A program made the translations under genes and the position numbers. 44,807 bases of DNA. Source: an uncultured Bacteroidota bacterium. Lineage in GTDB: Bacteria; Bacteroidota; Bacteroidia; Bacteroidales; WCHB1-69. The notes below the pieces were generated by a model. The model did not search any database. It saw only the letters and a list, made by a program, of their open reading frames with translations, and was not told the origin of the DNA. The stretch covers positions 1 through 44,807 of the forward strand of contig CADADB010000020.1 in assembly GCA_902786595.1 (NCBI GenBank). The letters are read 5' to 3'. Below are positions 3,161 through 44,807 of the stretch, in pieces; position 1 is the stretch's first letter, and every line of letters begins with the position of its first letter.

Positions 3161-3188
3161 CCAGGGGTTGCGCTTCACTTACCCCTGG
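3161..3188. repeat. Hairpin next to the 39-bp repeat
   Basis: An inverted repeat CCAGGGGT / ACCCCTGG around a 12-base loop, overlapping by two bases the copy of the 39-bp dispersed repeat at 3187-3225. It lies in the gap between the barrel gene and the S41 lipoprotein gene. Confidence 0.65.
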
Positions 3189-3225
3189 CTACCAAGCTCT
3201 TGCCCCTTTGGGGCTGCTTAAGGAA
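3187..3225 (-). repeat. 39-bp dispersed intergenic repeat, copy 1
   Basis: In reverse complement this matches the element at 39434-39472 with two differences and the one at 43089-43127 with three. It contains a GCCCC(n3)GGGGC-type hairpin and the segment AAGAGCTYGGTAGCC. Here it sits about 50 bases past the barrel-gene stop codon. Confidence 0.85.
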
Positions 3226-35871: not shown

Positions 35872-37176
35872 ATGGATAACAAGCCGAAAGATATTATCCT
35901 ATTGCAGGAGCACCAACCTTTTGCCAATCCAAGCGGATATGGCAATGGGCTTGATTATACCAGTAAGATGGAATATCTTTATGGGCTGAATCTGAAATTT
36001 CAGGAGACGGGCTTTCTCAAAGAACCGAAATTTTTAGGAATCAACGATTGGACCGCTTCCTATTTCATCGGGGCCGCATGGCTCATTCCTGACGAACTTG
36101 CCGTGGTGGTCACACCGAAACTGCCAGACGTCGATTTCGTTCAGATGTTCTTGGCGGCTTTGGAAGTCGATACGCAAAAAGAATCGAACTATTTTGCCCA
36201 ATGCTATGGCATTCAGTTCGATGAACCTCAAATCGAAACTCACGAAGAACTTAATCAACTGACACCCCTGTTGGTGTTGCATTTTATCTCCCTGTTGGAA
36301 CGGTTGGTGAAGCATGGCTTGAAAAAGGACTATCTCCTTCACGAAGAGAATCTGAAAGCCAAGGTCAAAGGCCGGATTCTGTTCGGCAAGCACCTCAAGA
36401 CCAATGTGTTCCAGCAACGTAGTGATCGAATATACTGCCAATATCAGGAATATACGGACGACATTCCTGAAAACCGCCTGCTGAAAAAGGCCCTGCTCTT
36501 TTCCGAACGCATCCTCGACAGATGTGATAGTCTGAAAAGACAGTCCCAATACCCTGATGTCCAGTTGCGATTGAATCGTTTGAAGGCCTCATTTAGCCAT
36601 ATATCTGATGATATTGAGCCGTATCAGGTGCAGAAGTTGTCATCCAATAAGTTGTTCAAAGGATATAAAGAGGCGATAAAGGTGGCAAAGATGATTCTGC
36701 GCCGTTTCGACTACTCCATTCGCGAGGCGAGTTCCGAACAACATTTCACCCCGCCGTTTTGGATTGACATGGCGCGGCTGTATGAGATGTGGGTGTGGAA
36801 ACAGTTACAAAATAGCAGCATATATCCAGTATTGTTTCAAGAAGTTGGTTCATATAGAAGGCAAGTCGCCGATTTTGTCATTAAAGAAGAGAAGCTGATT
36901 CTTGATGCCAAGTACAAACCCAATTATACGAATGAAAATTGGGTTGACGTTGAAGACATCCGTGAGCTGAGTGGAAATGCACGCGATGAGCGATTGCTAC
37001 CAAATTTGCCGGAGGACTATTCTCCACGTTGCATTATCATCTATCCAGGCAACACCGATGAATTGAAACCGGAATCAGATATTTTATTTGAACAACAAGG
37101 TAAGAAGATACCCCATTACCGCAACTTTTTCAAAATCAGTGTGCCGTTGCCCATTTACAACAATGAACACAAATAA
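35872..37176 (+). CDS. mcrC: McrC-type nuclease subunit
   Basis: A 434-residue partner of McrB. The N-terminal half contains the McrC stretches LLVLHFISLLERLVKHGL and KVKGRILFGKHLKTN. The C-terminal half has WIDMARLYEMWVWKQL, then a PD-(D/E)xK nuclease core VADFVIKEEKLILDAKYKPN at about residues 328-350. There the aspartate of ADF and the D-x-K of LDAKYK form the metal site. Together with McrB it would cleave DNA carrying modified cytosines. It starts 22 bases after mcrB stops, in one transcript. No terminator is evident in the 148-base gap to the convergent sigma operon. Confidence 0.9.
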   Translation: MDNKPKDIILLQEHQPFANPSGYGNGLDYTSKMEYLYGLNLKFQETGFLKEPKFLGINDWTASYFIGAAWLIPDELAVVVTPKLPDVDFVQMFLAALEVDTQKESNYFAQCYGIQFDEPQIETHEELNQLTPLLVLHFISLLERLVKHGLKKDYLLHEENLKAKVKGRILFGKHLKTNVFQQRSDRIYCQYQEYTDDIPENRLLKKALLFSERILDRCDSLKRQSQYPDVQLRLNRLKASFSHISDDIEPYQVQKLSSNKLFKGYKEAIKVAKMILRRFDYSIREASSEQHFTPPFWIDMARLYEMWVWKQLQNSSIYPVLFQEVGSYRRQVADFVIKEEKLILDAKYKPNYTNENWVDVEDIRELSGNARDERLLPNLPEDYSPRCIIIYPGNTDELKPESDILFEQQGKKIPHYRNFFKISVPLPIYNNEHK

Positions 37177-37324
37177 AAAGGCGCTTCCTTATACCCCTTT
37201 AGTTCGTAGTGCGAGTTCCGCCCGCCAGAAGACAATGGCAAGGTGACGACTTATTCTCCGCAAAAATGCGGCGAATAAAACTTGTTTTCACCGCACCGAC
37301 CCTCACCAAACCTCTCCACGATGC

Positions 37325-37702
37325 TCAAATGTGCGAAACTTCACAGATCTTCCGCACCAATCCCGTGATACACCAGCTCGCAAAGCATATAGCCAGTAGC
37401 AGCAGCACTTTCAGGAGCAGCGAGAACGCGGGGAAGGACACCCCAACAGAGGCTGTCTGCGTCGGTAACAGCCATTGCGGGTGCAACAGCACGAGCACGA
37501 TGCCGATGGCGCCCGTGACGATGCCCGAAATGAACACGGCCACCATCATCCGACGGTAACGTCTCGTCTGCGCTTCACGATACCGTTTTGCGTATTCCGC
37601 CGCCTCCAACTTCTTGGAAAGCTTCTCCAAATATTCGTTGCGGTCGCCCATGTCCGGCTGGTACTGGGCGAAAAGGTCTTCTATGGTGGTTTTCTCTTTC
37701 AT
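37325..37702 (-). CDS. Membrane protein coupled to ECF sigma factor
   Basis: A 125-residue protein with a charged, helical cytoplasmic start (MKEKTTIEDLFAQYQPDMGD, residues 1-50) and two or three transmembrane helices (about 52-72, 90-112). Its ATG overlaps the sigma-factor stop by four bases (ATGA), a typical anti-sigma arrangement. The short N-terminal cytoplasmic part followed by membrane helices resembles small anti-sigma-like proteins of Bacteroidota, but I see no zinc-binding or FecR domain. The anti-sigma role is inferred from position only. Confidence 0.75.
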   Translation of the reverse strand: MKEKTTIEDLFAQYQPDMGDRNEYLEKLSKKLEAAEYAKRYREAQTRRYRRMMVAVFISGIVTGAIGIVLVLLHPQWLLPTQTASVGVSFPAFSLLLKVLLLLAICFASWCITGLVRKICEVSHI

Positions 37703-38178
37703 CGTTCCAAAATTTGTTTAAGTTTAACTCTCCCTCTTGAAAGCTGCTGCTTCACAGCCAATTGGGAGCCTCCCGTGATTTTCGCAATCTCCTTCACGGA
37801 GTAGCCGCTGACGTAGAACAGCAGGATGGCGCTCTTCTCCTTCAGCGGCAGCGTGCCGATAGCCTCGTACAGCTCCTGGTATTGGAAGGCATCGTCGGCA
37901 CGCGGGCCGCCCGGCATCTGCTCCGCCGCGTCCAAGTCCGTCCGGCGGTTCCACCCGGACCGCTGGTGGTCGAGGAAGGTGTTGTAGGCGATCTTGAACA
38001 GCCACGTGGAGAACTTGGCCCGCTCCACGAACCGCTCCATCGCGATGTACGCCTTCACCATCGCCTCCTGCGCGATGTCCTCCGCCTCCATCCGGTCGCC
38101 CTCACACAGGGCAAGCAGGAATCTCCGCAAAGACTCCTGCTCCTCCGAAATTAAGGCTATGAATTGTTCTCGTGTCAT
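37699..38178 (-). CDS. ECF RNA polymerase sigma factor
   Basis: A 159-residue sigma-70 family factor. The start at 38178 gives MTREQFIALISEEQ, a normal ECF start, and makes an ATGA overlap with the upstream gene. A longer frame upstream would overlap that gene's coding region. Region 2 contains DIAQEAMVKAYIAMERF and FSTWLFKIAYNTFLDHQR. Region 4 contains LPLKEKSAILLFYVSGYSVKEIAKITGG and a recognition helix, VKQQLSRGRVKLKQ. It probably directs a stress or envelope regulon under control of its two coupled membrane proteins. Confidence 0.92.
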   Translation of the reverse strand: MTREQFIALISEEQESLRRFLLALCEGDRMEAEDIAQEAMVKAYIAMERFVERAKFSTWLFKIAYNTFLDHQRSGWNRRTDLDAAEQMPGGPRADDAFQYQELYEAIGTLPLKEKSAILLFYVSGYSVKEIAKITGGSQLAVKQQLSRGRVKLKQILER

Positions 38179-38645
38179 TCGGAGATCTTTTGCTCGGCAA
38201 TCCGTTTTTCTTCGGCCTCCAACTCGTTGCGGAGGACCCTCTTGCTTACAAAGTAGTAGATAAGGAACGCCAAGCCTATGGCCATTATCACGCCGCCGCA
38301 AAAGAGTCCTATCGCTTTCGAGCCAAACGAAACCATCCCCATTAGGTGGAGGACTAAGATGACCAGTCCCATAAGCGTCATCATCAGGCCGCCGTATAGA
38401 TTTTCCAACAACTTTTGTTTCAATGTTTTGTTATTGGTTTCCTGCGACATGTTCAGCTTGTTCATCACCTCAACTGGGTCAAGATCCGGATTTTTCTCCA
38501 ACAAGGCCATCAAAACCTCCGTCTTTTTGTCGATTTCGTGGTTTTTGCGTTTATTAATCAACCATATAACCATCAAGGGCAGCACCACGCAACAGCCGAT
38601 TACTACGATGACTATCATTATGATTCCAAAAATATCTTCACTCAT
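38175..38645 (-). CDS. Membrane protein upstream of sigma factor (DUF6249-like)
   Basis: A 156-residue protein with a transmembrane helix near residues 8-29, a charged middle (HEIDKKTEVLMALLEKNPDLDPVEVMNKL), two further helices at about 85-132 and a charged tail. The layout fits the DUF6249 group often found beside sigma factors in this phylum, but I recall that group only loosely. Its stop overlaps the sigma start in an ATGA. It heads the three-gene operon and is divergent from hypB. I see no clear -7 box for it. Confidence 0.75.
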   Translation of the reverse strand: MSEDIFGIIMIVIVVIGCCVVLPLMVIWLINKRKNHEIDKKTEVLMALLEKNPDLDPVEVMNKLNMSQETNNKTLKQKLLENLYGGLMMTLMGLVILVLHLMGMVSFGSKAIGLFCGGVIMAIGLAFLIYYFVSKRVLRNELEAEEKRIAEQKISE

Positions 38646-38749
38646 GACTTTAATTTTTTAAGGTTATATTTTTCCGTTAATTACCGAATCGATTCAACCA
38701 TTAAACGAACGAATGGGGCAAAAGGTGACATTTGAGGCGAAAAAAATTG

Positions 38750-38758
38750 TACCTTTGC
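38750..38758 (+). promoter_or_regulatory. -7 box for the hypB cluster
   Basis: TACCTTTGC after an A-tract, 24 bases before the hypB ATG, with TTTG at 38731-38734 as a possible -33 element. It is the only clear promoter for the five-gene cluster. Confidence 0.7.
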
Positions 38759-38781
38759 ACCCGAAATATGAAATAGGGTAA

Positions 38782-39441
38782 ATGAACGAGGTAAAGGTTA
38801 TCGAAATCAAGAAAAGCGTCTTTGCTGAAAATGAGAAAGATGCTGATGCTCTTAGAGTTGAATTGAAAAACAAAGGGGTGTGTCTCCTCAATTTGATGTC
38901 TGCGCCCGGAAGCGGCAAGACCACCACTCTTATCCAGCTAATTAACAGAATCAAAGACAAGATTCGCGTATCCGTGATGGAAGCCGACATCGACAGCGAT
39001 GTGGATGCGGTGAAAATCAAGGAGGCCACTGGCGTGCCTTCCATTCAGCTGCACACCGGCGGCATGTGCCACCTTGACGCGGAGATGACCCGCCAAGGAC
39101 TCGACAACCTTGACCTCGAAAACACCGACCTCGTCATCCTCGAGAATGTCGGCAACCTGGTTTGCCCCGCCGAATTCGACACCGGCGCCACCTGCAACGC
39201 GATGATCCTTTCCGTGCCCGAGGGCGACGACAAACCCCTCAAGTACCCCCTCATGTTCACCGTCTGCGACCTCGTCATCATCAATAAGATGGACGTGGTG
39301 CCCTACTTCGATTTCGACATCGAACGCTGCAAAAAGTACATCCACCTGCGCAACCCCAAAACCCAAATCATCCCCGTTTCCGCCAAAACCGGCTACGGAA
39401 TCGACAACCTTGCCGAATGGCTTCTAAAACAACTTCCTTAA
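38782..39441 (+). CDS. hypB: HypB-type nickel-insertion GTPase
   Basis: A 219-residue SIMIBI-class GTPase that helps load nickel into enzymes. The P-loop SAPGSGKTT lies at residues 40-48. The G-domain metal site is intact: C96 and H97 in GGMCHLDAEMT, and C128 in ENVGNLVCPAEFDTG. INKMDVVPY is the guanine-specificity motif and PVSAKTGYGI the G5 region. It lacks both the N-terminal high-affinity CxxCGC motif and a histidine-rich tract, so it is a minimal HypB. The last codons and stop lie inside a 39-bp dispersed repeat. A 63-base gap leads to the large flavoprotein gene, with hypA beyond it. No nickel enzyme is in the window. Confidence 0.93.
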   Translation: MNEVKVIEIKKSVFAENEKDADALRVELKNKGVCLLNLMSAPGSGKTTTLIQLINRIKDKIRVSVMEADIDSDVDAVKIKEATGVPSIQLHTGGMCHLDAEMTRQGLDNLDLENTDLVILENVGNLVCPAEFDTGATCNAMILSVPEGDDKPLKYPLMFTVCDLVIINKMDVVPYFDFDIERCKKYIHLRNPKTQIIPVSAKTGYGIDNLAEWLLKQLP

Positions 39442-39472
39442 GCAGCCCCGAAGGGGCAAGAGCTCGGTAGCC
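39434..39472 (+). repeat. 39-bp dispersed repeat, copy 2 (contains the hypB stop)
   Basis: Runs from the final Leu-Pro codons of hypB through its TAA stop into the gap. It differs from copy 3 (43089-43127) at one base and contains a GCCCCGAAGGGGC hairpin without a T-tract. Confidence 0.9.
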
Positions 39473-39504
39473 GTCATTACAAAAGTCACCAAACATATCG
39501 TAAT

Positions 39505-42324
39505 ATGCCTGAAATGTCAACCAAATTTGTCCCGAAACACAAAGGGGACAAGAACCCGAACCCCAAGCTTCTCAAGCTGGTTCGTCACATCACCGATCGT
39601 ATCCCCGGTAAAATCAAGATGGATACTGACGCCCCTGAGTATTGGGGCCTTGCCTGCATCTTCGAAGACGAGATGGATGCCGTCACCCGTGAGGCCGCTC
39701 TGGATCTGATGCTGGATATGCTGCCCGGCAATCCTTTCCGGGTGCGCAAACATTGGACCAATGCGCAACTCCACGAGCTGAACAGCCAGAAACATTACAC
39801 TCCTGACGACAAGTCCTTCGACGAACTGTTGGACCTGATGGCCCGCATGGGAGTCATGGAGTATGACTATGGCGACAAATACACCAAAGACGGGCCCGTT
39901 CCCGGTACCACCTACGAAAGGAAAGACCGTGTGTATTGGGTACCCATGTTCGTCCCTGGCAGTGCCGAATACACCAATATGAACGAGGAACTCATGAAGA
40001 AACACCCGGAACTGGGCATGTTTTTCGAACGTATGACGTTCCTGCCGCTTGAGAAGGTCACTCCGATGGTGCCTATGGGCGGTTCCGGTATCGGCATGCA
40101 CGTGATTCCGGTGGAGAAAGCCATTTCCATGGAGAATCAATCCATTGATATAGAGTACATTTCATATTGGCTTAAACGCTACGAAGGCCACCTGGCGGTG
40201 GGCATCTGCTCCTGCCGTATTGGTCGCAAAGGACTGGATGAAGGCTGCGCCGACGATTACCACGATTGGTGTATCGGCGTGGGCGATATGGCGGAGTATC
40301 TGGCGGAGACGGGCCGAGGTCACTTCATCACCTACGATGAGTGCATGGCCATCTTGAAAAAAGCAGAGGATCATGGTTTTGTACACCAAATCACCAATAT
40401 TGACGGTGAAGGCAAAATCTTTGCCATCTGCAACTGCAATGTGAAGATTTGCAATGCGTTGCGTACTTCGCAACTGTTTAATACCCCCAACATGAGTCGT
40501 AGTGCATACGTGGCGAAGGTGGATCCGACGAACTGCGTGGCTTGCGGTCGCTGCGTGGAATACTGTCCTGCAGGCGCTGTTCGTCTGGGACAGAAACTCT
40601 GCACCAAGCACGGCGAGCAGACCTATCCGAAACAGGAGCTGCCCGATGCCAAGAAGTGGGGACCGGAAAAGTGGGACGAGGACTACCGCGACAAGAACCG
40701 TATCAACTGCTACCCGACTGGCACGGCACCCTGCAAGACAGCTTGTCCGGCGCATATCGCGGTGCAGGGCTATCTGAAGAAGGCTGCCGAAGGCAAATAT
40801 ACGGAAGCGTTGGAACTCATCAAGCGCGAGAACCCGTTCCCGGCAGTGTGCGGGCGTGTCTGCAACCGTCGCTGTGAGGATGCCTGCACGCGCGGCACCA
40901 TAGACCAGCCCATCGCCATCGATGCGGTCAAGAAGTTCATCGCGGAGCAGGATCTCAAAACGGAGACCCGCTTCGTGCCGGAAGTGAACATCTGTTCCAA
41001 TGTGAAGGAATTCTGGGATGAGAAGATTGCCATCATTGGTGGTGGCCCTGCCGGTTTGAGCTGCGCCTACTACCTCGCCACGATGGGCTACAAGCCCACG
41101 GTGTTCGAGAAAGACGAGATCCCCGGCGGTATGCTGCAATACGGCATCCCGTCCTATAAACTCGACAAAGAAGTCATCAAAGCCGAAATCGACATCATGC
41201 GCGAAATCGGTGTGGAGATCCGCACCGGCGTGGAAGTCGGAAAAGACATTACCATACAGCAACTTAGAGATCAAGGATACAAGGGCTTCTATGTGGCTAT
41301 CGGCTGCCAGGGCGGCAAACTGCCCGGCATCTCCGGTGAGAATCTGCCCGGCACCACCACGGCCATTGATTTTCTGCACAACTGCAATTGCGGCACGCAG
41401 GTCACTGGAAAGGTCGTCGTGGTCGGCGGCGGCAATGTGGCCATTGATGCGGCGCGCGTTGCTAAGCGCGGCGGTGCCGAGTCCGTCACCATGCTCTCTT
41501 TGGAGACCGAAGACATTATGCCCGCCTCCTTGGAGGAGCGCCGCGAGGCCCGCGAGGACGGCGTGGTCATCAACCCCGGTTGGGGCCCGAAAGAAGTGCT
41601 CGGCACCGACAAGGCCACCGGCATCGTCTTCAAGAAATGCACCTCCGTGTATGACAAAGATCACCGTTTTTCTCCGCAATACAATGAGGAAGAAACTATT
41701 ACGCTGGATGCCGACTTGGTCATCTTCGCCATCGGTCAGACGGTCATCCCCAAGGATCTGCTCAAGGATACGAAAGTGGAATTCGTGCGCGGTGTCTATC
41801 CCGTGGCCGACAAACTGACCTACCAGACCGCCGAAGAGGACATCTTCGTGGGCGGTGACTGCTTCACCGGTCCGAAGTTCGCCATCGACGCCATCGCTGC
41901 CGGCAAGGAAGGTGCCGAATCGTTGCACCGCTATGTGCAGCACGGTCACCTCACCATCGGGCGCAACCGCCGCGACTTCATCGAGCTCGACAAGGACGAC
42001 ATCGTGGTGGAGAGCTACGACAACTCCTCCCGCCAGGTGGAAGGGGTGTCCGAGCAGGCCGACAAGTTCAAGGAATACACGCTCACGCTCACCGAGGAAC
42101 AAGTGCGCACCGAGACGTCCCGCTGTTTGAGCTGTGGCGCGTCAGTGGTCGATGAGAACCGTTGTATCGGCTGCGGCATCTGCACCACCAAATGCGCTTT
42201 CGACGCCATCCACCTCTTCCGCGACAACCCCGACGCCAGCATCATGCGCACCTCCGAGGACAAGTTCAGCGGCATTCTGCCCTATATGTTGAAACGAGCC
42301 GCAAAGATCGTCTTTAAGAAGTAA
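39505..42324 (+). CDS. Large Fe-S flavoprotein, GltD-like NAD(P)H oxidoreductase with extra ferredoxin domains
   Basis: A 939-residue multi-domain redox protein. Residues 1-330 are a cysteine-bearing region (C235, C237, C248, C256, C309, C311, C316) with GDMAEYLAETGRGH and EDHGFVHQITN. It resembles uncharacterised anaerobic 4Fe-4S proteins. Residues 344-354 (CVACGRCVEYC) are a [4Fe-4S] motif. Residues 402-480 are the GltD-type Fe-S helical domain (PCKTACPAHIAVQGYL, CGRVCNRRCEDAC). An FAD Rossmann loop GGGPAG is at 512-517 and an NAD(P) loop GGGNVA at 641-646. GGDCFTGPKFAIDAIAAGK is the second FAD motif. A C-terminal ferredoxin spans 874-897. It is a candidate for linking NAD(P)H to ferredoxin. 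The substrate is unknown. It lies between hypB and hypA, 2 bases before the latter. Confidence 0.9.
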   Translation: MPEMSTKFVPKHKGDKNPNPKLLKLVRHITDRIPGKIKMDTDAPEYWGLACIFEDEMDAVTREAALDLMLDMLPGNPFRVRKHWTNAQLHELNSQKHYTPDDKSFDELLDLMARMGVMEYDYGDKYTKDGPVPGTTYERKDRVYWVPMFVPGSAEYTNMNEELMKKHPELGMFFERMTFLPLEKVTPMVPMGGSGIGMHVIPVEKAISMENQSIDIEYISYWLKRYEGHLAVGICSCRIGRKGLDEGCADDYHDWCIGVGDMAEYLAETGRGHFITYDECMAILKKAEDHGFVHQITNIDGEGKIFAICNCNVKICNALRTSQLFNTPNMSRSAYVAKVDPTNCVACGRCVEYCPAGAVRLGQKLCTKHGEQTYPKQELPDAKKWGPEKWDEDYRDKNRINCYPTGTAPCKTACPAHIAVQGYLKKAAEGKYTEALELIKRENPFPAVCGRVCNRRCEDACTRGTIDQPIAIDAVKKFIAEQDLKTETRFVPEVNICSNVKEFWDEKIAIIGGGPAGLSCAYYLATMGYKPTVFEKDEIPGGMLQYGIPSYKLDKEVIKAEIDIMREIGVEIRTGVEVGKDITIQQLRDQGYKGFYVAIGCQGGKLPGISGENLPGTTTAIDFLHNCNCGTQVTGKVVVVGGGNVAIDAARVAKRGGAESVTMLSLETEDIMPASLEERREAREDGVVINPGWGPKEVLGTDKATGIVFKKCTSVYDKDHRFSPQYNEEETITLDADLVIFAIGQTVIPKDLLKDTKVEFVRGVYPVADKLTYQTAEEDIFVGGDCFTGPKFAIDAIAAGKEGAESLHRYVQHGHLTIGRNRRDFIELDKDDIVVESYDNSSRQVEGVSEQADKFKEYTLTLTEEQVRTETSRCLSCGASVVDENRCIGCGICTTKCAFDAIHLFRDNPDASIMRTSEDKFSGILPYMLKRAAKIVFKK

Positions 42325-42326
42325 AT

Positions 42327-42677
42327 ATGCACGAACTGGGTATCGTCTTCTATATCATCCGCGATGTGAAAAAGGTCGCTGAAGAAAACCATGTGGAGCA
42401 TGTGGATTCTGTGGTCATGGACATCGGGGAGGTTTCCACGGTGGTGCCGCACCTGCTCACCGACTGCTGGCGCTGGGCCGCCGACAAAGAGGAACTGCTG
42501 AAGGGTTGCGAGCTGCAGTGCAACATCATCCCGGCCGTCACCTGGTGCGACGACTGCCACACCGAGTACGAAACAGTGAAGTTCGGCAAAACCTGCCCCC
42601 ATTGCCACAGCGGAAACACCTGGCTCCTCCGCGGCAACGAAGTCGAAATCCGCGAAATCCAAGTTCCTCCTCTATAA
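42327..42677 (+). CDS. hypA: HypA-type nickel metallochaperone
   Basis: A 116-residue nickel chaperone. The N-terminus MHELGIVFYIIRDV supplies the MHE nickel site with H2. The zinc site has C74, C77, C90 and C93 in WCDDCHTEY and TCPHCHSGN. Length and layout match HypA/HybF. HypA normally works with HypB to insert nickel into [NiFe]-hydrogenase and sometimes urease. Here it follows the flavoprotein gene by two bases, so it is surely co-expressed with it. A heptamer array begins right after its stop codon. Confidence 0.93.
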   Translation: MHELGIVFYIIRDVKKVAEENHVEHVDSVVMDIGEVSTVVPHLLTDCWRWAADKEELLKGCELQCNIIPAVTWCDDCHTEYETVKFGKTCPHCHSGNTWLLRGNEVEIREIQVPPL

Positions 42678-42741
42678 CCTTAAACCCCAACCCTTAAACC
42701 TTAACCCTTAAACCTTAAACCCTAAACCTTAAACCCTAAAC
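42676..42741. repeat. 7-bp tandem array (AAACCYT, telomere-like) after hypA
   Basis: About nine imperfect heptamers AAACCTT/AAACCCT starting at the hypA stop codon and ending just before the next gene. It is the reverse-strand relative of the array at 28025-28079. It occupies nearly the whole gap, so no promoter fits there. Confidence 0.9.
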
Positions 42742-42745
42742 GAAT

Positions 42746-43096
42746 ATGTCCTGTTTTATCATCCCCATGGCGCAGGCCATTGCCACAAGCGCCTACAGAA
42801 AAGCCAACGCGAAAGCGATTGAAAGTTCAGAACACGCACTCACGCGCAACATCCCGGCATTGGAGAAGATGCTCTGGGGCGGCACCGTGATGCTCATCGT
42901 CGATCACGTCATCAACGGCGAGCTCACCTGGCAGTACCCCTTCTTCACCGCCCTCGAGTCCGGCGGCTTCCCCGTCATGCTCCGCGAACTCCTCACCGTC
43001 GGCGTCCCCATGTCGCTGGTCCTCACTGCCGTCTGGGCCGTGTGGACTCTCGCTAAGGCACGTCGGGCAGCAACTATTGAGAAACCACTTCCTTGA
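42746..43096 (+). CDS. Small membrane protein of the hyp cluster
   Basis: A 116-residue protein: a short hydrophobic start (MSCFIIPMAQAIATSAYR), a charged stretch, then two likely transmembrane helices around residues 43-60 (KMLWGGTVMLIVDHVI) and 78-103 (MLRELLTVGVPMSLVLTAVWAVWTL), ending basic. I recognise no family. Its last residues Leu-Pro and stop codon are part of the 39-bp repeat, as in hypB. It lies between hypA and the DUF5692 gene on the same strand with no promoter visible, so it probably belongs to the same functional unit. Confidence 0.75.
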   Translation: MSCFIIPMAQAIATSAYRKANAKAIESSEHALTRNIPALEKMLWGGTVMLIVDHVINGELTWQYPFFTALESGGFPVMLRELLTVGVPMSLVLTAVWAVWTLAKARRAATIEKPLP

Positions 43097-43127
43097 GCAG
43101 CCCCGAAGGGGCAAGAGCTCGGTAGCC
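43089..43127 (+). repeat. 39-bp dispersed repeat, copy 3 (contains a gene stop)
   Basis: One base different from copy 2. It begins in the last codons of the small membrane-protein gene and includes its TGA stop. A further small hairpin, GCGAC(n3)GTCGC, follows at about 43136-43148. Confidence 0.9.
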
Positions 43128-43204
43128 CCGTACAAGCGACGAAGTCGCGCAGTGCGGGACATGTTCATTGATAATTACCAATATTATAATCAAATAATAG
43201 TATT

Positions 43205-44296
43205 ATGTTTTTCCAAGTTTATGGGGCTAACGCCCTGGCCCAATGGGGGATGCTGCTCGTCGTCCTCGTGGGTCTCATCCTGTTCAACGAGTTCGCCCGT
43301 CGCACCAAAGCCGGCGGCATCATCACCTTTTTCGTCATCCCCGTCATCCTGACGGTCTATTTCGTAGCCATCGCCATCGGAGCCCGCTCCGGAGCTGAAT
43401 GGGCGGTCAACAACCAGACGCACGTCTATATGAACGGCTGGTTCCACTACGCCAAGCTCTACGCCGCGCTCACCGGCTGTATCGGCTTCATGATGATCAA
43501 ATACAAATGGGGCATCGGTGCCAAACACTGGTTCAAACCGTTCCCGTTCATCATCGTGGCCATCAACATCCTCATTGCTGTGGCCTCCGACTTCGAATCC
43601 GCCATTATGGGCTGGAACAAGTGGTGGCTCTCCAGCGAGGGCGTGTGGCTCTATGGTGGCTGGCACAATGTCATGAACGGCGTCGCCGGTTTGCTCAACA
43701 TCCTCTGTATGACCGCTTGGTGGAATGTGTTCCCGTCCAAGGACAAGAAAGACATGATCTGGGCCGACATGACCTGGGTCTTCATCGTGGTCTATGATAT
43801 CTGGAACTTCGCCTACACCTATAACTGTCTGCCCACGCACAGCTGGTTCTGCGGTATCGCGTTGTTGCTTGCCCCGACGATTGCTGCTATTTGTTGGAAC
43901 CGCGGCGGTTGGATCATGAACCGCGCCAACACGTTGGCTATCTGGTGCATGTTCGCGCAGGTGTTCCCGCTCTTCCAAGAGACCTTCAAAGACGGTTTCC
44001 AGGCCTTCAAGTGGGCTGTGCTTCCCGTGCAGTATCCCAACGGCATCGAGACCATCACGGAGATTTACGCTGCTGCCGGCGGTGAAGCTGCCGCTGTGGG
44101 CACCACCGTTGAGACTGTGGCCGGCAATCCGACCATGATGACGGTGATCAGCGCCCTTGCCCTCATTACCAATGTTGTCGCCCTGTGCTACATCATCGCC
44201 CAGGCCAAGAAGCGTCACATCAACCCGTACAAGGAAGATGTCTTCATCAACCAGAAGTACTACAAAGACGCTATGGAGCGCGCCGATCTGTCGTAA
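43205..44296 (+). CDS. DUF5692 family membrane protein
   Basis: A 363-residue integral membrane protein with about nine or ten helices. The pattern LILFNEFARRTKAGG near the start, WFHYAKLYAALTGCIGFMMIKY, NVMNGVAGLLNILCMTAWW and IVVYDIWNFAYTYNCLP fits the DUF5692 family as I remember it. That family is common in gut anaerobes and has no known function. Tryptophans and conserved Asp/Asn residues inside the helices (VASDFESAIMG, YDIWNFAYTYN) suggest a polar site in the membrane, such as a transport path or cofactor pocket. It ends the hyp cluster and is followed by a strong terminator. Confidence 0.8.
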   Translation: MFFQVYGANALAQWGMLLVVLVGLILFNEFARRTKAGGIITFFVIPVILTVYFVAIAIGARSGAEWAVNNQTHVYMNGWFHYAKLYAALTGCIGFMMIKYKWGIGAKHWFKPFPFIIVAINILIAVASDFESAIMGWNKWWLSSEGVWLYGGWHNVMNGVAGLLNILCMTAWWNVFPSKDKKDMIWADMTWVFIVVYDIWNFAYTYNCLPTHSWFCGIALLLAPTIAAICWNRGGWIMNRANTLAIWCMFAQVFPLFQETFKDGFQAFKWAVLPVQYPNGIETITEIYAAAGGEAAAVGTTVETVAGNPTMMTVISALALITNVVALCYIIAQAKKRHINPYKEDVFINQKYYKDAMERADLS

Positions 44297-44315
44297 TCCA
44301 AGCACGAATGCAATG

Positions 44316-44352
44316 AAAAAGGTCGCGGGATTATTTTCCTGCGACCTTTTTT
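44316..44352. terminator. Bidirectional terminator between DUF5692 gene and hydF
   Basis: A long stem AAAAAGGTCGC / GCGACCTTTTT, extended by further pairs towards the loop, with A- and T-tracts on both sides. It can serve both convergent genes. Confidence 0.9.
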
Positions 44353-44377
44353 GGTTCGATAAAAATCGGTAATTATT

Positions 44378-44807
44378 TTACAATGCGGCAAACGGTGACA
44401 CCGCCCGGTCGAAGATGCCGTTGACATAGGCGAGAACCATGCCGTAGTTGCTGACCGGGATGCCCGCTTCGATGGCGGGGCGTAACCGTTCCTTCAACTG
44501 CTTGCGGGTGACCATGCAGCCACCGCACTGGATGACCATCGCATACTGCTGGATGTCAGGGATTTGGTTGAGACCCGACACGAAATCGAAATGCAGCTCT
44601 TTGCCCGTGAACTTGCGGATAAGACGCGGGAGTTTCACCCGCCCTATGTCCTCGCAGGAGGTGAGGTGCGTGCAGGATTCCAACATCAGGATGCGGTCGC
44701 CGTCGCGAAGGTCGCGCAATTTCGGGGTCCCTTCCAGGTAAGCACCGAATTCGCCCTTCTGGTGCGCCAACACCACGCTGAAGCCCGTCAGCGGGATGCT
44801 TTCCGGC
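44378..44807 (-). CDS. hydF: [FeFe]-hydrogenase maturation GTPase HydF, C-terminal part
   Basis: The frame stays open to the right window edge, so only about the last 143 residues are present. The cluster-binding pattern CxHx(n)CxxC of HydF is visible: CTHLTSCEDIG and, about 45 residues later, QCGGCMVTRKQL. IGRVKLPRLIRKFTG and GIPVSNYGMVLAYVNG also match the C-terminal domain. HydF is the scaffold on which the diiron subcluster of [FeFe]-hydrogenase is built and from which it is transferred. Its GTPase domain lies outside the window. The gene converges on the hyp cluster across a shared terminator. An internal GTG at 44776 is not the true start. Confidence 0.92.
   Translation of the reverse strand, partial: PESIPLTGFSVVLAHQKGEFGAYLEGTPKLRDLRDGDRILMLESCTHLTSCEDIGRVKLPRLIRKFTGKELHFDFVSGLNQIPDIQQYAMVIQCGGCMVTRKQLKERLRPAIEAGIPVSNYGMVLAYVNGIFDRAVSPFAAL

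Follow-up and report, generated by a model that had tools for sequence, protein, structure and literature searches.

The five-gene cassette at 38782–44296 of the window (the whole stretch of 44,807 nucleotides analysed here) belongs, judged by its sequence, to the IsrA-type kind of gene cluster published in 2023 (PMC10134865), a family whose biochemistry is still putative. Our preferred reading, held with moderate confidence, is that a dedicated HypA/HypB pair loads nickel into a six-cysteine site (Cys6) of the flavoprotein, which would then carry out NAD(P)H-driven hydrogenation of C=C bonds, and that the DUF5692 protein stands apart from this enzyme. The earlier note took the cassette for an undescribed system. 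That claim falls, because both the linkage of hypA, hypB and DUF5692 and the nickel hypothesis are printed in the 2023 paper (PMC10134865).

Organisation of the cassette

All features described here lie on the forward strand unless stated otherwise. The earlier note's five adjacent same-strand genes proved exact in their coordinates, and four of them match named families. hypB (38782–39441) encodes the nickel GTPase (TIGR00073, 239 bits, above the cut-off) and precedes the gene for an IsrA-like multi-Fe–S FAD/NAD(P) oxidoreductase of 939 aa (39505–42324; Pyr_redox_2, Fer4_20 and two Fer4 stretches in Pfam and NCBIfam), the proposed nickel client, hereafter the flavoprotein. hypA (42327–42677; PF01155, 105.6 bits) encodes the nickel metallochaperone, which is divergent, since it reaches 73.4 bits against the NCBIfam HypA equivalog cut-off of 88.1. 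Two membrane protein genes follow: a small, dispensable one (42746–43096) and the gene for the multi-pass DUF5692 protein (43205–44296; PF18948, 433 bits, cut-off 27). The product of the small gene, 116 aa long, has no Pfam or NCBIfam match; a simple hydropathy scan places a single membrane segment, or two that overlap, around residues 74–105.

The five genes had been described as lying between one clear promoter and a strong terminator, and of these the terminator holds. The stem of this intrinsic terminator, at 44315–44352, has 16 pairs and an energy of −26 kcal/mol (z −8.4), and none of 200 shuffles was equally stable; it is not in the list of a separate terminator pattern scan. The promoter 5′ of hypB is only plausible. 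The candidate at 38731–38757, read from the sequence, has the form TTTG ... TAnnTTTG, and its TAnnTTTG element at 38750–38757 follows the Bacteroidetes promoter consensus, at a spacing to TTTG shorter than in that consensus. A promoter pattern scan for another promoter type listed none upstream of hypB, and an Rfam scan of 37000–44807 gave no match.

HydF, named earlier as the neighbour, is indeed present near DUF5692, on the minus strand and with only its C-terminal part in the window; it also lies near DUF5692 at locus L095, with a 232-aa frame between. Searched by tblastn, the window part of HydF has weak matches (36 and 44%) in two of the best 80 of 321 relatives, many of whose loci end shortly after the cassette. 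Since these two are the only ones, we treat the adjacency as incidental to the system.

A 27-base intergenic repeat has exact copies at 39446–39472 and 43101–43127, flanking the flavoprotein gene, hypA and the small gene, and a third, distant copy with two mismatches at 3187–3213 on the minus strand. It arose in none of 100 shuffles, and exact copies are absent from the other fetched loci outside the window's genome. At 42677–42740, in the gap between hypA and the small gene, TTAAACCC-like units are repeated in tandem in telomere-like fashion.

Conservation and spread

A scan of genome collections confirmed 321 relatives, the best 80 of which were kept as loci; the titles of these 80 are all Bacteroidales, Bacteroidia, Bacteroidetes or Paludibacteraceae, and many of them name ruminant hosts. 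hypA was found in all 80 loci, hypB in 79 (L016 begins inside the flavoprotein), the DUF5692 gene in 72 and the small membrane gene in 67, some of these absences being due to contig ends. Ten of the 80 (L022, L023, L038, L042, L054, L060, L063, L072, L076 and L077) have no small gene between hypA and DUF5692 and no room for one, and at L024, L047 and L065 no DUF5692 was found although the sequence continues downstream for some 3 kb or more. Since these two genes are missing in some relatives, the core of the cassette is hypB–flavoprotein–hypA. The order is kept in the relatives; the arrangement is thus not due to chance, and the neighbourhood is not unique to one genome; such uniqueness would have spoken against the earlier note. 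At two loci hypA lies farther downstream of the flavoprotein, some 8 kb away at L066 and 1.3 kb at L040, so something has been inserted there.

Clustering of 1209 ORFs from the same 80 loci (best of 321) gave no further cassette family in more than five loci, with two exceptions: frames whose position and strand mark them, in our judgement, as antisense shadows of cassette genes, and a family in 12 loci whose position was not computed. This clustering is coarse, as the flavoprotein itself was recovered in just 68 of the 80 loci.

The cassette also occurs outside this group. A plasmid search gave two records at E ≤ 1e-60, one of them full-length (60.8%), from Subdoligranulum variabile (Firmicutes; L091). 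This plasmid carries hypB–flavoprotein–hypA–DUF5692 at 66, 61, 50 and 55% identity, lacks the small gene and has a divergent GntR/FCD regulator. No relative was found in viral contigs. We infer that horizontal spread of the cassette is likely.

HypA tracks the flavoprotein

We surveyed 86 genomes of the window's family, each at least 80% complete and not independent of one another. The flavoprotein was called at E ≤ 1e-100 with up to 10 candidates scored per genome, so that distant homologues fall outside the count, and was found in 22 of the 86; HypA was above the cut-off in 22 as well. The two go together: HypA is above the cut-off in 21 of the 22 genomes with the flavoprotein versus 1 of the 64 without it (Fisher p 8e-18, uncorrected for kinship). 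In the one flavoprotein genome lacking HypA (G320), the flavoprotein is a fragment at a contig edge. At E ≤ 0.001 HypA is matched in 29 of the 86 genomes; the seven below the cut-off are partial matches and were left out.

None of the 86 family genomes matches the [NiFe]-hydrogenase large subunit (PF00374) or urease alpha (PF00449), for which five and four of 14 control genomes, respectively, give matches. HypD is over the cut-off in one family genome (G296, which lacks the flavoprotein) and in none of the 22 with the flavoprotein. The window's own genome, 93% complete, has no match for the [NiFe] large subunit, HypD or urease alpha. The case in which every genome with the cluster also holds a [NiFe]-hydrogenase and a full hyp set, which the earlier note had envisaged as contrary to its proposal, is not what we find.

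Even members of one genus differ in whether the cassette is present, which makes repeated gain or loss likely, and the family offers a clean comparative system, with congeners that have or lack the cassette at one chromosomal site. Some copies are irregular: a flavoprotein match with an in-frame TAA (G343:C28:138854-141673), two copies in one genome (G329, contigs C9 and C113), and two genomes (G300, G309) in which the match is split near residue 635 inside one long frame, so that an insertion is likely.

In a class-wide sample of 296 genomes, full-length HypA occurs in 16, and 15 of these also have PF00374 over the cut-off, the exception being the window's genome. G198 was left out of the 16, as its HypA is over the cut-off only through a partial match (positions 57–98 of 112). 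PF00374 is over the cut-off in 17 genomes of the sample, including G087 and G259, which have no HypA match; the link between HypA and hydrogenase is thus imperfect in that direction. Of the 296 genomes, the window's alone has DUF5692 over the cut-off, and it alone has the flavoprotein's N-terminal domain (N-domain) at E ≤ 1e-15, a search that was run on this class sample with up to seven candidates scored per genome.

Among the best 80 of 321 relatives, His2, Glu3 and the four zinc cysteines of HypA are identical in 80 of 80 aligned sequences, and the CH...C nickel site of HypB (Cys96, His97 and Cys128) is identical in 78 of 78. In a tree of HypB, 12 cassettes, the Subdoligranulum plasmid and locus L110 are split from 14 HypBs of genomes with PF00374 by a branch with support of 100/99, L110 being a long branch flagged by the tree program. 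The HypA tree divides cassette and hydrogenase sequences in the same way, though its support is lower (94/86) and long branches are more numerous. HypA and HypB are most likely a pair dedicated to the flavoprotein system. The proposal that their client is neither hydrogenase nor urease is supported by the tracking of the flavoprotein by HypA, by the lack of [NiFe] large-subunit and urease matches in the 86 genomes and by the separate HypB group; the sequence comparisons support the flavoprotein as the best candidate for that client.

The flavoprotein and its six-cysteine domain

The flavoprotein carries PF14691 and PF07992 plus extra Fer4 stretches before (residues 338–359) and after them (Cys887/Cys890/Cys893/Cys897). 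A PDB search returned chains of the NfnA/GltD/dihydropyrimidine dehydrogenase type, matching residues 346–880 and mostly about 400–812. Among the 13 PDB sequences at E ≤ 1e-10, no best match starts before residue 346, so that in this search no solved structure is related to the N-terminal Cys6 domain. An AlphaFold2 model of the flavoprotein reached a pLDDT of 45.9 and a pTM of 0.33 from a shallow alignment of 31 sequences that are 84–92% identical to the window protein.

Cys235, Cys237, Cys256, Cys309, Cys311 and Cys316 (codons within 40207–40452; also called cluster V), the proposed nickel/Fe–S active site, are present in 80 of 80 aligned sequences from the best 80 of 321 relatives. When the proteins of the window, Subdoligranulum, L110 and two further cassettes are compared, exactly six cysteines of the N-domain before Fer4 are invariant. 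The CxC pairs are 74 residues apart, like Cys180 and Cys254 of IsrA in the published numbering (PMC10134865).

The only family genome with HypA and without the flavoprotein (G358) has an arrangement that bears on this domain. At its locus L110, HypA and HypB adjoin a protein of 357 aa that consists of the N-domain (29% identity) and two Fer4 stretches, has no FAD part and keeps all six cysteines; this genome has HypA and HypB but no hydrogenase, urease or flavoprotein match. Since the chaperones here stand beside the N-domain without the FAD part, this single locus points to the domain itself as the nickel client. The genes form an operon-like run (L110:7500-13361), in which genes for a PPDK_N/PEP-utilizer protein and a DUF7064/DUF7065 protein lie upstream of HypA, HypB and the N-domain protein in the same direction. 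L110 resembles the association of HypA and HypB with an isr-type ferredoxin, and its protein may belong to a different group; according to the 2023 paper, HypA and HypB are not associated with the isr-type ferredoxin outside two strains (PMC10134865).

The DUF5692 protein

Among the 86 family genomes DUF5692 occurs in 41. It accompanies the flavoprotein in 21 of 22 genomes and is present in 20 of the 64 that lack the flavoprotein. Of the 20 DUF5692-only genomes, 19 were read, and G298, with a fragment of 54 positions, was left out. The window's subtype is present, at 81–99% identity, in 13 family genomes that have neither the flavoprotein (E ≤ 1e-100) nor HypA over the cut-off; 11 of these copies are full length, and those at L105 and L111 are cut at contig ends. 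The other six loci hold a second subtype, 31–34% identical over the aligned part.

Six congeners have DUF5692 with no cassette in front of it: the DNA that in the window lies upstream of the cassette, including its plausible promoter region, leads there straight to DUF5692. This upstream alignment reaches 90% in L095, 81–82% in L102, L103 and L111, 86% over 334 bases in L100 and 73% in L101. A remnant of about the first 20 hypB codons is present in L095, L102, L103 and L111, and there is none in L100 and L101. Since a hypB start has been left without hypB, deletion of the cassette is the simplest reading. The Ks of DUF5692 against the window is 0.17 for L095 and 0.40–0.42 for L102 and L103, although their junctions look alike; recombination among strains is therefore likely as well. 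In L095, L102, L103 and L111, an open frame of 26–27 codons runs from the hypB start upstream of DUF5692, and it might be a leader or a mere remnant.

The window and 12 cassette-less loci form 78 pairs, of which 66 are computable, the 12 pairs that involve L109 being saturated; in none of the 66 does Ka/Ks of DUF5692 exceed 0.10. As this holds where the enzyme is missing, DUF5692 is under purifying selection independently of the cassette. The best explanation is that DUF5692, an accessory protein of the membrane, has a function of its own and is no subunit of the enzyme, and this separation guides how each of the two should be studied.

Loci of the second subtype (L092, L096, L097, L106, L107 and L108) have genes of an NhaA cluster nearby in five of six cases and of a desulfoferrodoxin cluster in three of six, the family being confirmed for L097 alone; two of the loci also appear to have a ferritin-like gene. 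As a lead, this suggests a role of the second subtype in stress or ion balance.

Proposed mechanism and alternatives

In the mechanism that we favour, the GTPase HypB and HypA would insert nickel into the flavoprotein's N-terminal domain, with Cys235/Cys237/Cys256/Cys309/Cys311/Cys316 as the most likely site. The GltD/Nfn-like half would pass hydride from NAD(P)H onto FAD, and electrons would run from FAD along a [4Fe-4S] chain to the Cys6 site, where a hydrophobic substrate (a diene, terpene or unsaturated fatty acid) would be hydrogenated at an unfunctionalised C=C bond. In the rumen, such an enzyme could act as an electron sink or remove unsaturated lipids, and a link to the biohydrogenation of unsaturated lipids there is speculation. 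The link between chaperones and client is supported by the sequence data presented above, whereas nickel at Cys6, the electron path, the C=C chemistry and the substrate class are inferred. The chemistry is that of the published IsrA proposal (PMC10134865), and the fatty acids are our own addition.

The earlier note had suggested that the flavoprotein and the two membrane proteins form one membrane-bound nickel redox complex. Five adjacent co-directional genes with a terminator after the last would fit such a complex, as would DUF5692 in 72 of the 80 loci kept (best 80 of 321) and near about 40% of 988 homologues (PMC10134865). We nevertheless consider it improbable, and the least probable of the readings discussed here, since DUF5692 is kept under the low Ka/Ks given above in genomes without flavoprotein or HypA matches, stands alone at the same site in six congeners (four with the hypB remnant) and was not found at L024, L047 and L065, while the small gene is missing from 10 of the 80 relatives (best 80 of 321) and from the Firmicutes copy. 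Hardly better placed is a nickel enzyme elsewhere in the genome as the client, with the flavoprotein a mere neighbour. The nickel enzymes searched were [NiFe]-hydrogenase and urease, which leaves families such as LarA and CODH/ACS as candidates, and an unrecognised client would be beyond any search; against this stand the occurrence of HypA in 21 of 22 versus 1 of 64 genomes, its one exception holding the N-domain, and the grouping of the cassette HypB apart from the HypB of hydrogenase-bearing genomes.

HypA also binds zinc, and the two chaperones could act on the flavoprotein without nickel, building or loading an unusual Fe–S site or delivering another metal. The Cys6 site could then hold iron only, in a cluster such as a double cubane, to which the six-cysteine site has been likened (PMC10134865). 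We regard this as unlikely, if somewhat less so than the two preceding readings, since the nickel-site residues are invariant in HypA (80 of 80) and HypB (78 of 78) among the best 80 of 321 relatives. Loading of nickel into Cys6 remains our preferred reading. A bolder form of it is tentative, and we would sooner bet against it: the Cys6 domain would be a self-standing new class of nickel–iron–sulphur catalytic domain with its own HypA and HypB, either fused, as in the window, or split and ferredoxin-like, as in L110, the fused form hydrogenating unsaturated lipids or terpenes in rumen Bacteroidales. If the Cys6 domain holds nickel, it would define a nickel redox enzyme of a new kind and give HypA and HypB a new client.

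Comparison with known systems

With the maturation system of [NiFe]-hydrogenase (HypABCDEF) the window shares HypA and HypB with their nickel residues, but its genome has no large-subunit or HypD match and its HypB groups apart. The likeness to flavoproteins of the NfnA/GltD/dihydropyrimidine dehydrogenase type is confined to residues 346–880 of the window protein, and the Cys6 domain lies outside it.

The closest described system is IsrA, the putative isoprene reductase of Acetobacterium wieringae, which was assigned through isoprene induction and comparative genomics and not from a purified enzyme (Kronen et al. 2023, PMC10134865). Its family ("clade 9"), called widespread in anaerobes and including Bacteroidetes, was proposed to consist of nickel-dependent reductases of C=C bonds in linkage with hypA, hypB and DUF5692, with a chain of [4Fe-4S] clusters, the six-cysteine site as a possible nickel site and HypA and HypB as chaperones; co-occurrence among 988 homologues is 0.73 for hypA, 0.56 for hypB and 0.40 for DUF5692 (PMC10134865). 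A genome note of 2025 describes a cluster of this kind in strains able to hydrogenate isoprene or 1,3-butadiene (PMC12509576). In open-access PMC, "DUF5692" (all years) and "isoprene reductase" (from 2023) each occur only in PMC10134865, and the literature found reports neither metal content nor activity for any purified member of the family.

The isr operon has the order isrA–hypA–hypB–ferredoxin–hypA, whereas 38782–44296 has one hypA and no separate ferredoxin gene; the window's cassette is thus not the isr operon itself. Its gene run adds the small membrane gene and DUF5692, and reduction of isoprene by its flavoprotein is hypothetical. Acetobacterium homologues from strains that do not reduce isoprene are only about 47–49% identical to IsrA (PMC10134865), so the substrate in the window may differ. 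The two also share features: both proteins have about 900 aa, Fer4_20, an FAD/NAD(P) domain, two further Fer4 stretches and CxC motifs 74 residues apart, and both genes have hypA and hypB adjacent, DUF5692 as a frequent neighbour in the clade and a genome without a [NiFe]-hydrogenase match.
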